From Mycolicibacterium sp. lyk4-40-TYG-92 (lineage in GTDB: Bacteria > Actinomycetota > Actinomycetes > Mycobacteriales > Mycobacteriaceae): a stretch of DNA of 64,000 nt. Made by a program: the position numbers and the translations under genes. Of the stretch, positions 57,321 through 62,876 are shown one piece after another (the stretch's first letter is position 1; each line of letters starts with the position of its first letter). Under the pieces are notes generated by a model that was given only the letters and a program-made list of their open reading frames with translations, was not told where the DNA came from and did no database searches. Where the stretch lies: assembly GCF_030209435.1 (NCBI RefSeq), contig NZ_JARVRX010000002.1, positions 1 through 64,000 on the forward strand. Reading direction: 5' to 3'.

Positions 57321-58232
57321 CTACGCCGCCATCCGTGCCGCGGTGGCCGCGGCGATCTGGTTGAGGTGGTTGGTGGCGACCTGTACTGAGCTTTGGTGGG
57401 GGAGTGCGTCGACGTATTCGTAGGTGATGTGGGGCAGGGTCGGCGGGTTGGTGGCGTAGAAGGCGACGGCTCGGTCGATGGCTTCGACGAGGGCGGGGCC
57501 GCCGACGATGGGGTCGGTGACGAAGGCCAGCACCTGCTGGGCGAGGCTGCCCTGGCCGGTGAGGCCGGCGATCAGCGCGATGGCCGCGTTGATGCTGATG
57601 CCGAGCTGGACCGCGGCTTTGTAGACGGCGGTGATGTCGGCGCCGGCCTGGTTGGTGGGTGTGGTGGTGTAGAGGTCGCCGGGGTTGGCGAAGTCCCACC
57701 AGGTGTCAATGCCGTTGCTGTCCTTGGGGATCTGCGCAGCGGTGAGGTTGGTCGTGGCGATGCCGCGGCCTCCGGGGTCGGTGCCGCCGGGGAAGGTGTG
57801 GCCGGTCAGGCGCCAGGGGTTGCCGAAGGTGTAGCCGCCGATGAGGTTGGGTTTGGCCCATTGCAGGGTGCCGGTCATGATCTCGGCGAGGACCCGGGAG
57901 GCGGCCTCGGCGCCCTGGCTGTAGCCGCCGAGGGCGAAGGTCTGCTTCGGGTAGTTGTTGATCCAGCCGATGGCGTTGGTGACCGCGATCCGCACTGACT
58001 CGGCGTAGCTGGGGGACAGCGGCGCGCCGGGTGGGATGGGGCCGAAGGTCCACGGGGCTTGGATGGGGACTTCGAAGACGAGGTCGGGGTCGGCGGCGTG
58101 GACGACGTCGGAGGGGTAGCCGGTGCCCGGGGCGGCCCAGGTGCCGGCGAAGGTCAGGACGGCGTGGCGGACCTGGTAGACCCCGGAGATGTTGGCGGCG
58201 ATGTCGCTGAATGTGGTCATCGCTGGGCTCAT
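57321..58232 (-). CDS. LysB/cutinase-like serine esterase, module A
   Basis: 303-aa alpha/beta hydrolase resembling mycobacteriophage lysin B, the esterase that cuts mycolyl-arabinogalactan. Nucleophile motif GGYSQGAEAASRV; GGYTFGNPWRLTGHTFPGG matches the LysB GNP loop; WWDFANPGDLY offers the catalytic Asp and DALPHQSSV the C-terminal His. No signal peptide is evident. The ATG at 58232 overlaps the upstream 111-aa gene's stop (ATGA). A truncated duplicate lies at 62060-62536. Substrate could be a mycolate or other lipid ester (inference). Confidence 0.82.
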   Translation of the reverse strand: MSPAMTTFSDIAANISGVYQVRHAVLTFAGTWAAPGTGYPSDVVHAADPDLVFEVPIQAPWTFGPIPPGAPLSPSYAESVRIAVTNAIGWINNYPKQTFALGGYSQGAEAASRVLAEIMTGTLQWAKPNLIGGYTFGNPWRLTGHTFPGGTDPGGRGIATTNLTAAQIPKDSNGIDTWWDFANPGDLYTTTPTNQAGADITAVYKAAVQLGISINAAIALIAGLTGQGSLAQQVLAFVTDPIVGGPALVEAIDRAVAFYATNPPTLPHITYEYVDALPHQSSVQVATNHLNQIAAATAARMAA

Positions 58233-58564
58233 TTCGCGGTGGTGGGCAGTCCGTTGGCTTTGCGCCACTGGATGGCGAATTCCATGAGTTCGATGAGGAC
58301 GTCGCCACTGTCGCGGGTGATGCCGTCGCTGAAGGTGTGGACCCAGGCGATCTGCTCGGCGACGGTGACCTGCTGTTCGAAGGCGTCGAAGGTGCCCTGG
58401 TACGTCTGGCCGTTGTGGACGGAGTTCCAGGGCCCGCGGTTGGGGTCGTCGACGATGTCGCCGATGTTGCGGGGGTGGCGGGCCAGGACCGCACGCCAGG
58501 GTTCGGGCATGCCGTTGGCGGTGACGCCGGAGATGTCGGTCTGGAGTGATTGTGCATCAGCCAT
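58229..58564 (-). CDS. 111-aa hypothetical protein, module A
   Basis: Acidic-to-neutral protein MADAQSLQTDISGVTANGMP... with helical C-terminus (GDVLIELMEFAIQWRKANGLP). A strong AGGAGG site precedes the ATG at 58564. It is coupled by a 4-bp overlap to the LysB-like esterase. A duplicate at 62533-62799 lacks 23 internal residues (A residues ~27-49). No recognised family; it may be a partner or chaperone of the esterase (inference). Confidence 0.7.
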   Translation of the reverse strand: MADAQSLQTDISGVTANGMPEPWRAVLARHPRNIGDIVDDPNRGPWNSVHNGQTYQGTFDAFEQQVTVAEQIAWVHTFSDGITRDSGDVLIELMEFAIQWRKANGLPTTAK

Positions 58565-58736
58565 GGTGGAACCTCCTGGTTGGTGGGGTGGGACGCGATT
58601 TGGCGGTGCTCGGGTACCGAGGGAAGTCGGCGGTCTGGAATACCTTGTCGGCGAGCGGCTTTTGTCGTGCGAGCGATTCACGGTCCTCGGGTGGGGTTCC
58701 CGGGATCGTCATCGGAGCCGATTCGTCGTTCACCAT
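58557..58736 (-). CDS. possible leader ORF of module A
   Basis: 59-codon frame MVNDESAPMTIPGTPPEDRES... ending 8 bp inside the 111-aa gene. An AAAGGG sequence precedes its ATG at 58736. The segment TIPGxxPxDRES is also encoded at the same place in module B, the main reason to think the frame is translated. Confidence 0.4.
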   Translation of the reverse strand: MVNDESAPMTIPGTPPEDRESLARQKPLADKVFQTADFPRYPSTAKSRPTPPTRRFHHG

Positions 58737-58980
58737 CGTCTGCCCTTTTTGACTGGGACGTCCATTTCCACCATAGGCCCGTATTGGAGTGCGGTCGACT
58801 GCGGCGCGGGCGGCGAGCGGAGCCAGCGCGCACCCTGGCGCGGCGCAGCGTAGGGTTGAGGCATCGGCGGCGTTCAGCCGGGCCTGATGCCCGACGTGAA
58901 CCGATACGCCCCGCGTCTGCCACGAGTCAGATTCACCCGTCCTAGCATCGGGGAATCCACATGTGCGGCAGGCGCTTACC

Positions 58981-59709
58981 GTGACGTATTGCATCGGTGT
59001 GCTGCTCGACGACGGGATCATCTTCGCGGCTGATTCCCGCACCAACGCGGGCGTCGACAACTTCGCCAAGTTCTGCAAGGTGACGGTGTTCGAGACTCCG
59101 GGCGATCGCGTGATCGCCTTGTTGAGTTCGGGAAACCTGGCCGGGACGCAGGCCATCATCAGCGTGCTGCGGCAGCGGTGTGCCGACGGCCCCGCGACGA
59201 CCAACCTGCTCGGAGCGACGACGATGTTCGACGTCGCCCGATTGGTATCGGACGCCATGCGTGAGGTCGACCAGCGCGACGCGGGCTACCTGGACAGCAA
59301 CCCGGCCGGCTTCAACGCCTCATTCATCGTCGGTGGGCAGCTCGCCGGTGAGCCGATGAGGCTCTTCCGCATCTACGCCGAGGGCAATTTCATCGAAGCC
59401 GGCACCGACACGATGTTCCTGCAGACCGGTGAGACGAAGTACGGCAAGCCCATCCTCGACCGCGTCCTCACTCCCCAAACGTCCCTCGCCGACGCCACGA
59501 AATGCGTTCTGGTGTCCTTTGATTCGACCATGCGGAGCAATCTGTCGGTCGGTATGCCCATCGACTTGATCAGCTACGAACGGGACAGCCTCGAGGTGCC
59601 GTGGCGGCGCCGATTCGACGAAGGCGACCCCTACTTCACGGCCGTCCGGGAAGCGTGGAGCGAAGGCACCCGGGCGGTATTCAGCAAGCTACCCGACCTG
59701 CGATGGTGA
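58981..59709 (+). CDS. Anbu-type proteasome-like peptidase
   Basis: 242-aa Ntn-hydrolase of the Anbu (ancestral beta subunit) family, related to HslV and 20S beta subunits. Starting at the GTG 58981 gives V-TYCIGVLLDDGIIFAADSRTNAG, placing Thr at position 2 as the expected nucleophile after Met removal; the Asp and Arg of AADSRT and a Lys in KFCKVTVFE match the Ntn catalytic set. SFDSTMRSNLSVGMPIDL is the Anbu C-terminal motif. Followed 7 bp later by an N-formylglutamate amidohydrolase-like gene, then a transglutaminase-like gene. Mycobacteria also carry a 20S proteasome, so this would be an additional system. Confidence 0.88.
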   Translation: MTYCIGVLLDDGIIFAADSRTNAGVDNFAKFCKVTVFETPGDRVIALLSSGNLAGTQAIISVLRQRCADGPATTNLLGATTMFDVARLVSDAMREVDQRDAGYLDSNPAGFNASFIVGGQLAGEPMRLFRIYAEGNFIEAGTDTMFLQTGETKYGKPILDRVLTPQTSLADATKCVLVSFDSTMRSNLSVGMPIDLISYERDSLEVPWRRRFDEGDPYFTAVREAWSEGTRAVFSKLPDLRW

Positions 59710-59716
59710 TCGCGTC

Positions 59717-60472
59717 GTGCCGGACGTCCAGCTCGTCACGTGCGAACACGGCGGCAACGCCATACCGGCGCCGTTCGGATCGCTCTTTACCGGCCACCGC
59801 GCGCTACTCGACTCCCACCGGGGATGGGACCCTGGTGCCTTGGTAATGGCCGAGGCGCTCGCTACCGCGACCCGGGCACCACTGGTCGCATCGACCACCA
59901 GCCGGCTTCTCGTCGACCTCAACCGGTCGATCGGTCATCCGCAGCTCTTCTCGGAGGTGACGCGTGCCGCGTCGAGGGAGGTCCGAGCGCAGATTGTTGC
60001 GCAGCACTACCGCCCGCATCGCGATGCCGTGGAAGACCTTGTCAGACAGTCGATCTCGTCCGGACATCGGGTGATTCACATCGCCTCCCACAGCTTCACC
60101 CCGGAACTGGACGGGGTCGTGCGCCGAGCCGACGTCGGGCTGCTCTACGACCCCCGGCGGCGCGCAGAGGTGCAGCTGAGCACGCGCTGGCAGGCGTCGC
60201 TCGCGGGACTTCATCCCGAACTCCGGGTGCGCCGCAACTATCCCTACGCGGGCAAGGCGGACGGCCTGACGTCGCACCTGCGCAAGCAGTTCGGGGAGGG
60301 CGAGTATGTCGGAATCGAACTGGAGATCAACCAGCGCATCGTCGTCGCCGCCGGACAGCCCTGGGCAGCGCTACGCGGCGCGCTCATCGATTCCCTGCAC
60401 ACGGCTTGTGCACCCCAGCCCGACCTGCCCCGCGTAAACCAAAGCATCACAGCGAAAACGGAGACACCATGA
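59717..60472 (+). CDS. N-formylglutamate amidohydrolase family protein
   Basis: 251-aa zinc peptidase-like protein of the FGase family (PF05013). CEHGGNAIP supplies first ligands; LLVDLNRS, HSFTPELDG, RNYPYAGKADGLTSHLR and VGIELEINQR follow in family order. In this operon it may remove an acidic N- or C-terminal group, or hydrolyse a gamma-glutamyl-like conjugate, rather than act in histidine breakdown (inference; no hut genes nearby). GTG start 7 bp after the Anbu stop; its TGA overlaps the next ATG. Confidence 0.85.
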   Translation: MPDVQLVTCEHGGNAIPAPFGSLFTGHRALLDSHRGWDPGALVMAEALATATRAPLVASTTSRLLVDLNRSIGHPQLFSEVTRAASREVRAQIVAQHYRPHRDAVEDLVRQSISSGHRVIHIASHSFTPELDGVVRRADVGLLYDPRRRAEVQLSTRWQASLAGLHPELRVRRNYPYAGKADGLTSHLRKQFGEGEYVGIELEINQRIVVAAGQPWAALRGALIDSLHTACAPQPDLPRVNQSITAKTETP

Positions 60473-61275
60473 AAATCAATGTCGGCTACGAGATGGTCTT
60501 CGACTGCCCGAAACCCACCCCGATGATCTTCAACCTCAACGTCCACTACACCCGGGTCTCCGACCTCATCGGGCGCGACGTGTTGGTGGCCGACCCGCCG
60601 GTGCCGATGACGGCCTATCGTGACGACTTCGGCAACTGGTGCACCCGCATCGTCGCGCCGAAGGGGATCACCCGGATCTCGGGAGACGCGATCGTCAGGG
60701 ACAGCGGGCTCCCCGATGTCCTGGTCCCCGGGGCACGCCAAACACCGGTCCCGGAGCTGCCCGACGAAACGCTCATCTTCCTGCTGGGTAGCCGGTACTG
60801 CGATACCGACCGGCTGTCGCAGACGGCGTGGGACCTGTTCGAGCGGACACCGCCCGGCTGGGACCGCGTTCAGGCCATCTGTGACTACGTGCACCGACAC
60901 ATCACCTTCGACTATCTGCAGGCGGACAACACTCGCACCGCATTGGAGGCCTACGAGGGTCGGGTCGGCGTCTGCCGCGATTTCACGCACCTGGCGGTAG
61001 CCTTCTGCCGCTGTATGAACATCCCGACGCGCTATTGCACCGGGTATCTCGGCGATATCGGTATGCCGCCGCCTTATGGGCCAATGGATTTCGCCGCCTG
61101 GTTCGAGGTGTTTCTCGACGGGCACTGGTACACCTTCGACGCGCGCAACAACACGCCGCGCATCGGCCGGGTGCTGATCGCGCGCGGTCGTGACGCCGCC
61201 GACGTCGCCCTGAGCAATGCGTTCGGCCCCAACACGTTGACGAGTTTCCGGGTGCGGACGGACGAGGTGGCGTAG
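60469..61275 (+). CDS. transglutaminase-like protein, Anbu-associated type
   Basis: 268-aa protein: an N-terminal beta domain (~1-130, VGYEMVFDCPKPTPMIFNLNVH) and a transglutaminase-like core with the catalytic Cys in GVCRDFTHLAVAFCRCMNIP and Asp in WYTFDARNNTPRIGR. At the usual catalytic His (HAW) the sequence is DFAAWFEVF; the codon is GCC. Either this subfamily takes its His elsewhere or it is not a standard protease. Starts inside the FGase stop (ATGA), so the three genes form one operon. Confidence 0.85.
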   Translation: MKINVGYEMVFDCPKPTPMIFNLNVHYTRVSDLIGRDVLVADPPVPMTAYRDDFGNWCTRIVAPKGITRISGDAIVRDSGLPDVLVPGARQTPVPELPDETLIFLLGSRYCDTDRLSQTAWDLFERTPPGWDRVQAICDYVHRHITFDYLQADNTRTALEAYEGRVGVCRDFTHLAVAFCRCMNIPTRYCTGYLGDIGMPPPYGPMDFAAWFEVFLDGHWYTFDARNNTPRIGRVLIARGRDAADVALSNAFGPNTLTSFRVRTDEVA

Positions 61276-62059: not shown

Positions 62060-62536
62060 TTATGCACTCGGGCTGGCGATGCCGCGGCCGCCGGGGAAGG
62101 TGTGGCCTTGCATCCGCCAGGGGTTGCCGAAGGTGTAGCCGCCGATGAGGTTGGGTTTGGCCCATTGCAGGGTGCCGGTCATGATCTCGGCGAGGACCCG
62201 GGAGGCGGCCTCGGCGCCCTGGCTGTAGCCGCCGAGGGCGAAGGTCTGTTTCGGGTAGTTGTTGATCCAGCCGATGGCGTTGGTGACCGCGATCCGCACT
62301 GACTCGGCGTAGCTGGGGGACAGCGGCGCGCCGGGTGGGATGGGGCCGAAGGTCCAGGGGGCTTGGATGGGGACTTCGAAGACGAGGTCGGGGTCGGCGG
62401 CGTGGACGACGTCGGAGGGGTAGCCGGTGCCGGGGGCGACCCAGGTGCCGGCAAAGGTAAGGACGGCGTGGCGGACCTGGTAGACCCCGGAGATGTTGGC
62501 GGCGATGTCGCTGAATGTGGTCATCGCTGGGCTCAT
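62060..62536 (-). pseudogene. truncated LysB-like esterase, module B
   Basis: 158-aa frame almost identical to the first ~150 residues of the 57321 esterase, including GGYSQGAEAASRV and GNPWR, but it ends after GHTFPGGRGIASPSA. The catalytic Asp and His regions and the whole C-terminal half are missing, so it should be inactive. The ATG at 62536 keeps the overlap with the upstream gene. The neighbouring potassium channel occupies the space where the rest would lie. Confidence 0.82.
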
Positions 62537-62799
62537 TTCGCGGTGGTGGGGAGCCCGTTTGCTTTGCGCCACTGGATGGCGAACTCCATGAGTTCGATGA
62601 GCACGTCGCCGCTGTCGCGGGTGATGCCGTCGCTGAAGGTGCGGACCCAGGCGATCTGCTCGGCGACGGTCACCTGTTGTTCGAAGGCGTCGAAGGTGCC
62701 TTGGTAGGTCTGCCCGTTGTGGACGGCGCGCCAGGGTTCGGGCATGCCGTTGGCAGTGACGCCGGAGATGTCGGTCTGGAGCGATTGTGCATCAGCCAT
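62533..62799 (-). CDS. 88-aa hypothetical protein, module B (internally deleted copy)
   Basis: Duplicate of the 58229-58564 protein with an in-frame 69-bp deletion removing 23 residues after EPWRAV; GTCC occurs at both deletion edges in the intact copy. DNA is about 93% identical outside the gap by eye. AGGAGG site before the ATG at 62799. Coupled by ATGA to the truncated esterase. Confidence 0.65.
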   Translation of the reverse strand: MADAQSLQTDISGVTANGMPEPWRAVHNGQTYQGTFDAFEQQVTVAEQIAWVRTFSDGITRDSGDVLIELMEFAIQWRKANGLPTTAK

Positions 62800-62876
62800 G
62801 GTGGAACCTCCTGGTTGGTGGGGTGGATGCGGCTTGGCGCTGCTCGGCGGACCGATGGAAGTCGGTGGAGATCGGC

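Follow-up and report, generated by a model that had tools for sequence, protein, structure and literature searches.

A recurrent Anbu operon with an N-formylglutamate amidohydrolase-family gene and a histidine-less transglutaminase-like gene in Mycolicibacterium

The 64,000-nucleotide stretch of DNA analyzed here (the window; positions 1 to 64,000 of contig NZ_JARVRX010000002.1 of Mycolicibacterium sp. lyk4-40-TYG-92, assembly GCF_030209435.1) carries an intact operon of three genes, encoding the proteasome-like protein Anbu, a member of the N-formylglutamate amidohydrolase (FGase) family, here referred to as FG, and a transglutaminase-like protein, referred to as TG. Distantly related bacteria carry the operon as well, and mycobacteria probably acquired it from proteobacteria; its predicted task is the cleavage of peptide or acyl-amino-acid bonds, not the assembly of peptide tags. 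We consider this combined reading about equally likely to be right or wrong. The operon most likely represents a second type of Anbu operon, one with no ligases next to it and, on our best reading, a purely hydrolytic role; its chemistry and substrate are predicted. The features of the operon are as follows.

58981..59709, + strand: Anbu (proteasome-like Ntn hydrolase), GTG start at 58981 and TGA stop, with Thr1, Asp17 and Lys32 retained
59710..59716, + strand: 7-bp intergenic gap between Anbu and FG, read from the sequence
59717..60472, + strand: FG, N-formylglutamate amidohydrolase family (PF05013), GTG start and TGA stop, with a predicted zinc-carboxypeptidase-like fold
60469..60472, + strand: ATGA overlap of the FG stop and the TG start, read from the sequence
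60469..61275, + strand: TG, transglutaminase-like, ATG start and TAG stop, with Cys169 and Asp224 and with Ala at the catalytic His position 209

This layout agrees in every coordinate with the first-pass annotation, which had described the same three genes, gap and overlap. Compared with the three nearest relatives (L012, L013 and L014), nonsynonymous/synonymous ratios were 0.09-0.10 for Anbu, 0.20-0.23 for FG and 0.12-0.19 for TG, and purifying selection thus acts on all three genes. Because these ratios are low and the gene order recurs across phyla, the operon is more than a chance arrangement. The gene spacing suggests that Anbu, FG and TG are carried on a single transcript; scans for sigma-70 promoters and for terminators returned none of either. 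The upstream leader (58811-58980) has a TAGGGT near 58851 followed by a GGGGAAT stretch and resembles the leaders of several relatives.

To place the operon among its relatives, neighborhoods were called by tblastn around the 80 closest of 276 related Anbu loci from a genome-contig scan, a sample biased toward the Anbu type of the window. The order Anbu-FG-TG was the most frequent (33 loci), followed by Anbu-TG (19), Anbu alone (12, some of which may be cut off, since flank lengths vary), TG-Anbu (9) and FG-TG-Anbu (4), with three further patterns seen once each; one of these, L037, holds Anbu, FG, TG, ATP-grasp, alpha-E and a large TG in one run. Among the 33 loci, L025, L032 and L039, all of the mycobacterial clade, have a broken FG, and in L060 and L068 the FG frame falls outside the 215-300 residues set for the FG alignment. 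The Anbu-FG-TG order recurs in beta- and gammaproteobacteria, and an FGase of another subfamily adjoins TG-Anbu in cyanobacteria and in a Binatia genome. Clustering of open reading frames around the 80 loci gave five clusters present in 31 to 80 loci, presumably corresponding to Anbu, FG, TG and frames that overlap them; no other cluster reached more than 8 loci, and several of these came from Synechococcus. In a survey of 297 genomes of the genus, FG was found in 14 and Anbu in 26, and in 13 of the 14 FG genomes the FG match lay 16-27 nt from Anbu, counted from match end to match start (Fisher p 8e-15, uncorrected for relatedness).

The identity of the first gene was assessed by comparison with solved structures. 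Searched with phmmer against PDB chains, the window Anbu matched five distinct sequences at E≤0.01 (249-333 bits), three of them named Anbu or Designed Anbu and two Peptidase (5lox and 5nyw), and none named 20S or HslV. The best match, 5loy (333 bits), is a designed Anbu-1 consensus protein according to the accessible text of PMC5666114; 5lox is named Anbu in the part of PMC8665760 available, and 5nyw is known by its PDB name alone. The first gene had been called Anbu in the first-pass annotation, and this kinship to solved Anbus rather than to 20S beta subunits or HslV bears that out. Generic hidden Markov models under-call the protein, as the Pfam Proteasome model scored 20.6 bits, under its cut-off of 22.4, and no NCBIfam model matched over cut-off. 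The active-site Thr, Asp and Lys were each retained in 81/81 sequences of the window's Anbu type and in 21/21 other Anbus. With the GTG start assumed at 58981, the Thr comes immediately after it and there is no propeptide; an alternative in-frame GTG lies at 58963. The S1 pocket, read from the sequence as T20-F30-S48-L52-T55, is of the narrow, amphiphilic Anbu-1 kind and not the basic pocket of Anbu-2, as the two are described in the accessible portion of PMC5666114. The host genome encodes one Anbu and, as had been proposed, also a 20S proteasome (a 20S pair at C30:91014-92323).

That the second gene belongs to the FGase family was confirmed by a PF05013 score of 81.6 bits (cut-off 28.9), and it scored 84 bits against the FGase-family structure 2odf; its predicted fold is also that of the family. 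The FG residues H10, D37, H124 and E200 were invariant and, by analogy, could plausibly bind zinc and act as base. The FGases adjoining TG-Anbu scored higher against 2odf (128 bits for Vulcanococcus, L058, and 146 bits for the Binatia genome, L046), and that of L058 is 30% identical to the window FG (BLASTP, 59 bits). Together with those of L087 and L088 they form an FG clade of their own (4 rows, support 100); the Anbus of these four loci are 65-71% identical to the window Anbu. It looks, from these sequence comparisons, as if two FGase subfamilies were recruited beside Anbu, with strong divergence of a single one as the alternative.

The third gene proved to be transglutaminase-like as first described (PF01841 Transglut_core, 69.1 bits, cut-off 23), but it is not the transglutaminase of the published Anbu operon: it gave no match to Bact_transglu_N (PF08379) in the Pfam scan and has no catalytic His. 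In 63 TG copies read, with 6 truncated copies left out, Cys and Asp were present in all 63 and the His in none, the position being Ala in 47 and Ser in 16. The complete Cys-His-Asp triad of active transglutaminases and cysteine proteases is therefore absent from this protein. The His was present in 4/4 TGs of canonical operons that were read and in those of the host's own C32 and C8 loci. A search of plasmids with the operon DNA returned 114 records, and the 20 matches listed all fell within the TG part only.

The window's Anbu type was compared with other Anbus and their gene neighbors. In a 66-row Anbu tree, 45 window-type rows fell on one side of the branch that parts them from 21 others (support 89, not starred), several outgroup rows being long-branched. 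Control loci came from plasmid records carrying other Anbus, of which 8 out of 26 were retrieved. Four of these loci carry ATP-grasp, alpha-E, TG and Anbu in a row (Paracoccus L123, Limimaricola L127, Methylobacterium L129 and Aeromonas L130), the arrangement described for Yersinia bercovieri in the accessible part of PMC6376114; in L126 there are two Anbus, and ATP-grasp and alpha-E follow at some distance, and L124, L125 and L128 have no such neighbor of Anbu. Counts of canonical TGs at loci rest on TG queries other than that of the host's own C8 locus. No FG match was found at any of the 8 plasmid-borne loci. In the genomes of non-mycobacterial carriers of the window's Anbu type, 19 ATP-grasp loci were fetched, and a second, different Anbu was present at 11 of them (on the opposite strand in L138) and at 8 there was none; no FG match was found at any of the 19. 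In 6 of the 11 second-Anbu genomes, an FG match lies beside the first Anbu (L034, L035, L043, L051, L060 and L068).

Ligase and alpha-E genes are encoded elsewhere in the host genome (34 contigs totaling 6.17 Mb, with completeness given as 100%), which has two alpha-E genes and two circularly permuted ATP-grasp (CP-ATP-grasp) genes, at loci C8 and C32. By Pfam, C8 comprises ATP-grasp, alpha-E and a Bact_transglu_N transglutaminase; in C32, ATP-grasp and alpha-E are fused, and a Bact_transglu_N transglutaminase is accompanied by a putative amidoligase (DUF2126) that is itself fused to a transglutaminase. The first-pass annotation was thus right that such genes lie outside the operon, none standing beside the window genes, but its inference of a reduced pathway fails, as the host supplies ligase and alpha-E in trans together with Bact_transglu_N TGs. 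The result that it had named as refuting its view, such genes in a nearby operon with an FGase of their own, was not obtained: the loci lie on other contigs, and the operon FG is the only PF05013 protein found in the genome. Nor does the FGase appear to stand in for genes lost here, as had been supposed, since the same three-gene order occurs in proteobacteria, several of which have a separate ATP-grasp/alpha-E/Anbu locus. CP-ATP-grasp is near-core in the genus (269/297 genomes). A reading as a reduced operon was rejected, being ruled out by the ligase and alpha-E genes at C8 and C32 and by CP-ATP-grasp in 26/26 Anbu genomes.

Phylogenetic analysis placed the 28 mycobacterial-clade Anbu rows (27 loci plus that of the window; for L025, L027, L030, L032 and L038 the title says no more than actinobacteria) in one clade (100/99) nested within beta- and gammaproteobacterial rows (39 rows, 95/89; 42 rows, 94/90; midpoint root). 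When other Anbus served as the outgroup and 10 mycobacterial rows were included, the nesting held at moderate support (84-92 SH-aLRT, Shimodaira-Hasegawa-like approximate likelihood ratio test). Since the FG and TG trees likewise group the mycobacterial rows (support 86 and 86), the trees suggest that the operon was imported jointly into mycobacteria, and probably from proteobacteria. FG is intact in 12/27 mycobacterial-clade loci and broken or lost in the other 15. Clear FG remnants lie between Anbu and TG in L019, L025, L031, L032 and L039, and weaker ones, possibly due to chance, in L015, L026 and L027. Because of these remnants in FG-less loci, and because the distribution of intact FG on a 37-row Anbu tree requires at least 6 changes, the ancestor of the mycobacterial copies probably had FG, which has frequently been lost since.

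Next to the operon and convergent to it lies an ion-channel gene (PF07885, 61298-62020, - strand); L012, the nearest relative, has this gene beside its operon too. Two near-identical stretches in direct orientation (57783-58591 and 62087-62826; 98% over 300 nt and 96% over 106 nt) enclose the operon together with the ion-channel gene and carry a phage-endolysin-like gene (PHROG 102, lysis) and a small neighbor, which in the first copy matches PHROG 2424. Of the two endolysin-like copies, the second is the shorter, with 170 vs. 315 residues.

In the mechanism we propose, Anbu would expose Thr1 after removal of the initiator Met, and its open ring would cut peptides whose P1 residue is hydrophobic or amphiphilic. 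FG, likely a zinc amidohydrolase, would then take an acyl or (gamma-)glutamyl end group off the products. With its general base, the His, missing, TG may serve as a substrate-binding subunit that feeds glutamine- or glutamate-containing substrates, or may have an altered chemistry. Fuchs et al. favor protein degradation over peptide synthesis in the accessible text of PMC5666114. The pathway would probably help to recover nitrogen, since a response to nitrogen limitation has been published both for an Anbu and for an ATP-grasp/alpha-E cluster: Anbu is raised in Pseudomonas putida short of nitrogen (PMC5666114, accessible text), and a DUF403/404/407/transglutaminase cluster is NtrC-dependent in Burkholderia cenocepacia (PMC5491218, likewise from the portion available). 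On the Acidithiobacillus caldus plasmid locus L126, ATP-grasp/alpha-E has two different Anbus no more than 14 kb away, and the ntrC and glnL genes beside them hint at nitrogen control. In an alignment of the upstream regions of the window and the 27 loci of its clade, a similar leader was seen in many, and no regulator site was assigned, using for GlnR the motif given in the accessible part of PMC3662644.

Several observations weigh against this reading. The published work on nitrogen deals with other Anbus or other ligase clusters, and no GlnR site was assigned upstream; the published Anbus, as far as the available parts of PMC6376114 and PMC5666114 describe them, did not cleave standard substrates. 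No PF05013 match was found in 13 of the 26 Anbu genomes of the genus (in one, G024, Anbu is cut by a contig end), so that Anbu-TG can persist without FG, and the fourteenth FG genome, G212, has FG-TG with no Anbu match upstream (L150, G212:C29). At L150 a leader like that of other mycobacterial operons runs into FG, and a deletion may thus have removed Anbu there while sparing the FG and TG frames. His-less TGs occurred without a nearby Anbu in 3/3 alphaproteobacterial plasmid loci read (L009, L010 and L011), and TG is thus not tied to Anbu. Furthermore, CP-ATP-grasp was found in 43 of 45 non-mycobacterial genomes with the window's Anbu type (45 asked, of 53 such loci; the two without it are those of L055 and L086), which, together with the joining of both gene sets in L037, favors a functional link to ligases. 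Such a link is at the heart of an explanation close to the first-pass annotation, in which ligase/alpha-E/TG loci encoded elsewhere make tags that Anbu and FG shorten or take off. The two ligase/alpha-E loci and the putative amidoligase-transglutaminase fusion of the host would fit this, as do the 43 genomes and L037. However, the presence of CP-ATP-grasp in all Anbu genomes of the genus carries little information when 243/271 genomes without Anbu have it too (Fisher p 0.15), the ligase locus has an Anbu of its own in 11 of the 19 fetched loci, and no CP-ATP-grasp match was found in the genome of L055 (G313), a carrier of FG whose assembly completeness is unstated. We therefore regard untagging in trans as rather doubtful.

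It is also conceivable that the operon was imported and is now losing function, the co-occurrence of its genes reflecting shared transfer only. The patchy presence of Anbu in the genus, the frequent decay of FG in the mycobacterial clade and the phage-like genes around the operon in the window are what such a drifting remnant would leave; the purifying selection on all three genes, the invariant putative active sites of Anbu and FG, a gene order shared by distinct phyla and the presence of another FGase subfamily next to TG-Anbu make it unlikely. Still less likely is that FG is the N-formylglutamate deformylase (HutG) of histidine breakdown, placed beside Anbu by chance. N-formylglutamate is the product of HutF, and the host, with HutH, HutU, HutI and HutF over NCBIfam cut-offs, has FG as its sole PF05013 candidate for the step. 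Urocanase was found in 3/14 FG genomes of the genus, the host among them, vs. 33/283 others (Fisher p 0.39), so that most carriers of either gene do not have the other (11/14 FG genomes without a urocanase match, 33/36 urocanase genomes without FG), and FG keeps to Anbu in 13 of 14 cases. The hut genes of the host lie at G000:C11:202441-215129 (L155, L157) in the order HutH, HutU, HutF, HutI, with ABC-transporter genes between HutH and HutU, and an amidase between hutU and hutF passes the cut-offs of the hydantoinase/carbamoylase subfamily model and of one named allantoate amidohydrolase; this amidase could, we infer, perform the deformylase step. As a general account, HutG was rejected because of the 11 FG genomes without a urocanase match. 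Separately, urocanase was commoner in Anbu genomes of the genus (8/26 vs. 28/271, p 0.007, uncorrected for relatedness).

Returning to the hydrolytic operon, a wider version of this reading, which we put forward tentatively and hold to be less probable than its negation, is that bacteria have two Anbu systems, one coupled to ligases and the other a portable, ligase-free set of Anbu, FGase and pseudo-transglutaminase receptor, in which FGase was recruited at least twice and which would dismantle glutamyl- or acyl-capped peptides. Anbu is a proteasome relative of many bacteria, to which the cited literature, in the parts available, assigns no function or substrate, and a search of the open PMC literature gave no match joining Anbu with N-formylglutamate amidohydrolase; earlier mention elsewhere is possible. 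The recurring ligase-free partnership names testable partners of Anbu, a likely zinc amidohydrolase and a His-less TG, together with candidate substrates. In addition, 'transglutaminase next to Anbu' now covers two different proteins, only one of which has a complete triad, and genomes with two Anbus allow both types to be compared in one cell. If the two-system reading is true, it would provide the first candidate substrate class and downstream enzyme for the orphan Anbu ring.

Among known systems, the FGase-family proteins Atu2144 (2odf) and 2q7s of R. eutropha are 27% and 19% identical to the window FG, which differs from both in its link to Anbu and TG, outside the host's hut cluster. For TG, pairwise alignment with 3isr, a putative cysteine protease (transglutaminase-like) of Cytophaga hutchinsonii, sets the His of DFHACFEA against the Ala of DFAAWFEV in the window. 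Erythrocyte protein 4.2 (7uzs), an animal cytoskeletal relative of transglutaminases that is presumably without catalytic activity, offers an analogy only. In Anbu itself, the best match to the Anbu-1 consensus 5loy and an S1 pocket close to that of Pa-Anbu (T20-F30-T48-L52-S55, with conservative changes at 48 and 55) tie the window Anbu to the Anbu-1 cluster as far as that cluster is described in the accessible part of PMC5666114; the window Anbu differs by 8 type-specific positions (G5, C31, G54, A57, Q64, R129, T148 and M191), each conserved in ≥95% of the 81 window-type sequences and in ≤20% of the 21 other Anbus. These 21 stand apart from the window Anbu in the tree, at 39-56% identity. 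With the published Anbu operon, the window operon shares an Anbu with Thr1, Asp17 and Lys32 and a transglutaminase-fold partner transcribed in the same direction. It differs in having an FGase in place of adjacent ATP-grasp and alpha-E genes, and a TG that has neither the Bact_transglu_N domain nor the His, both of which are present in the TG of the Paracoccus operon.

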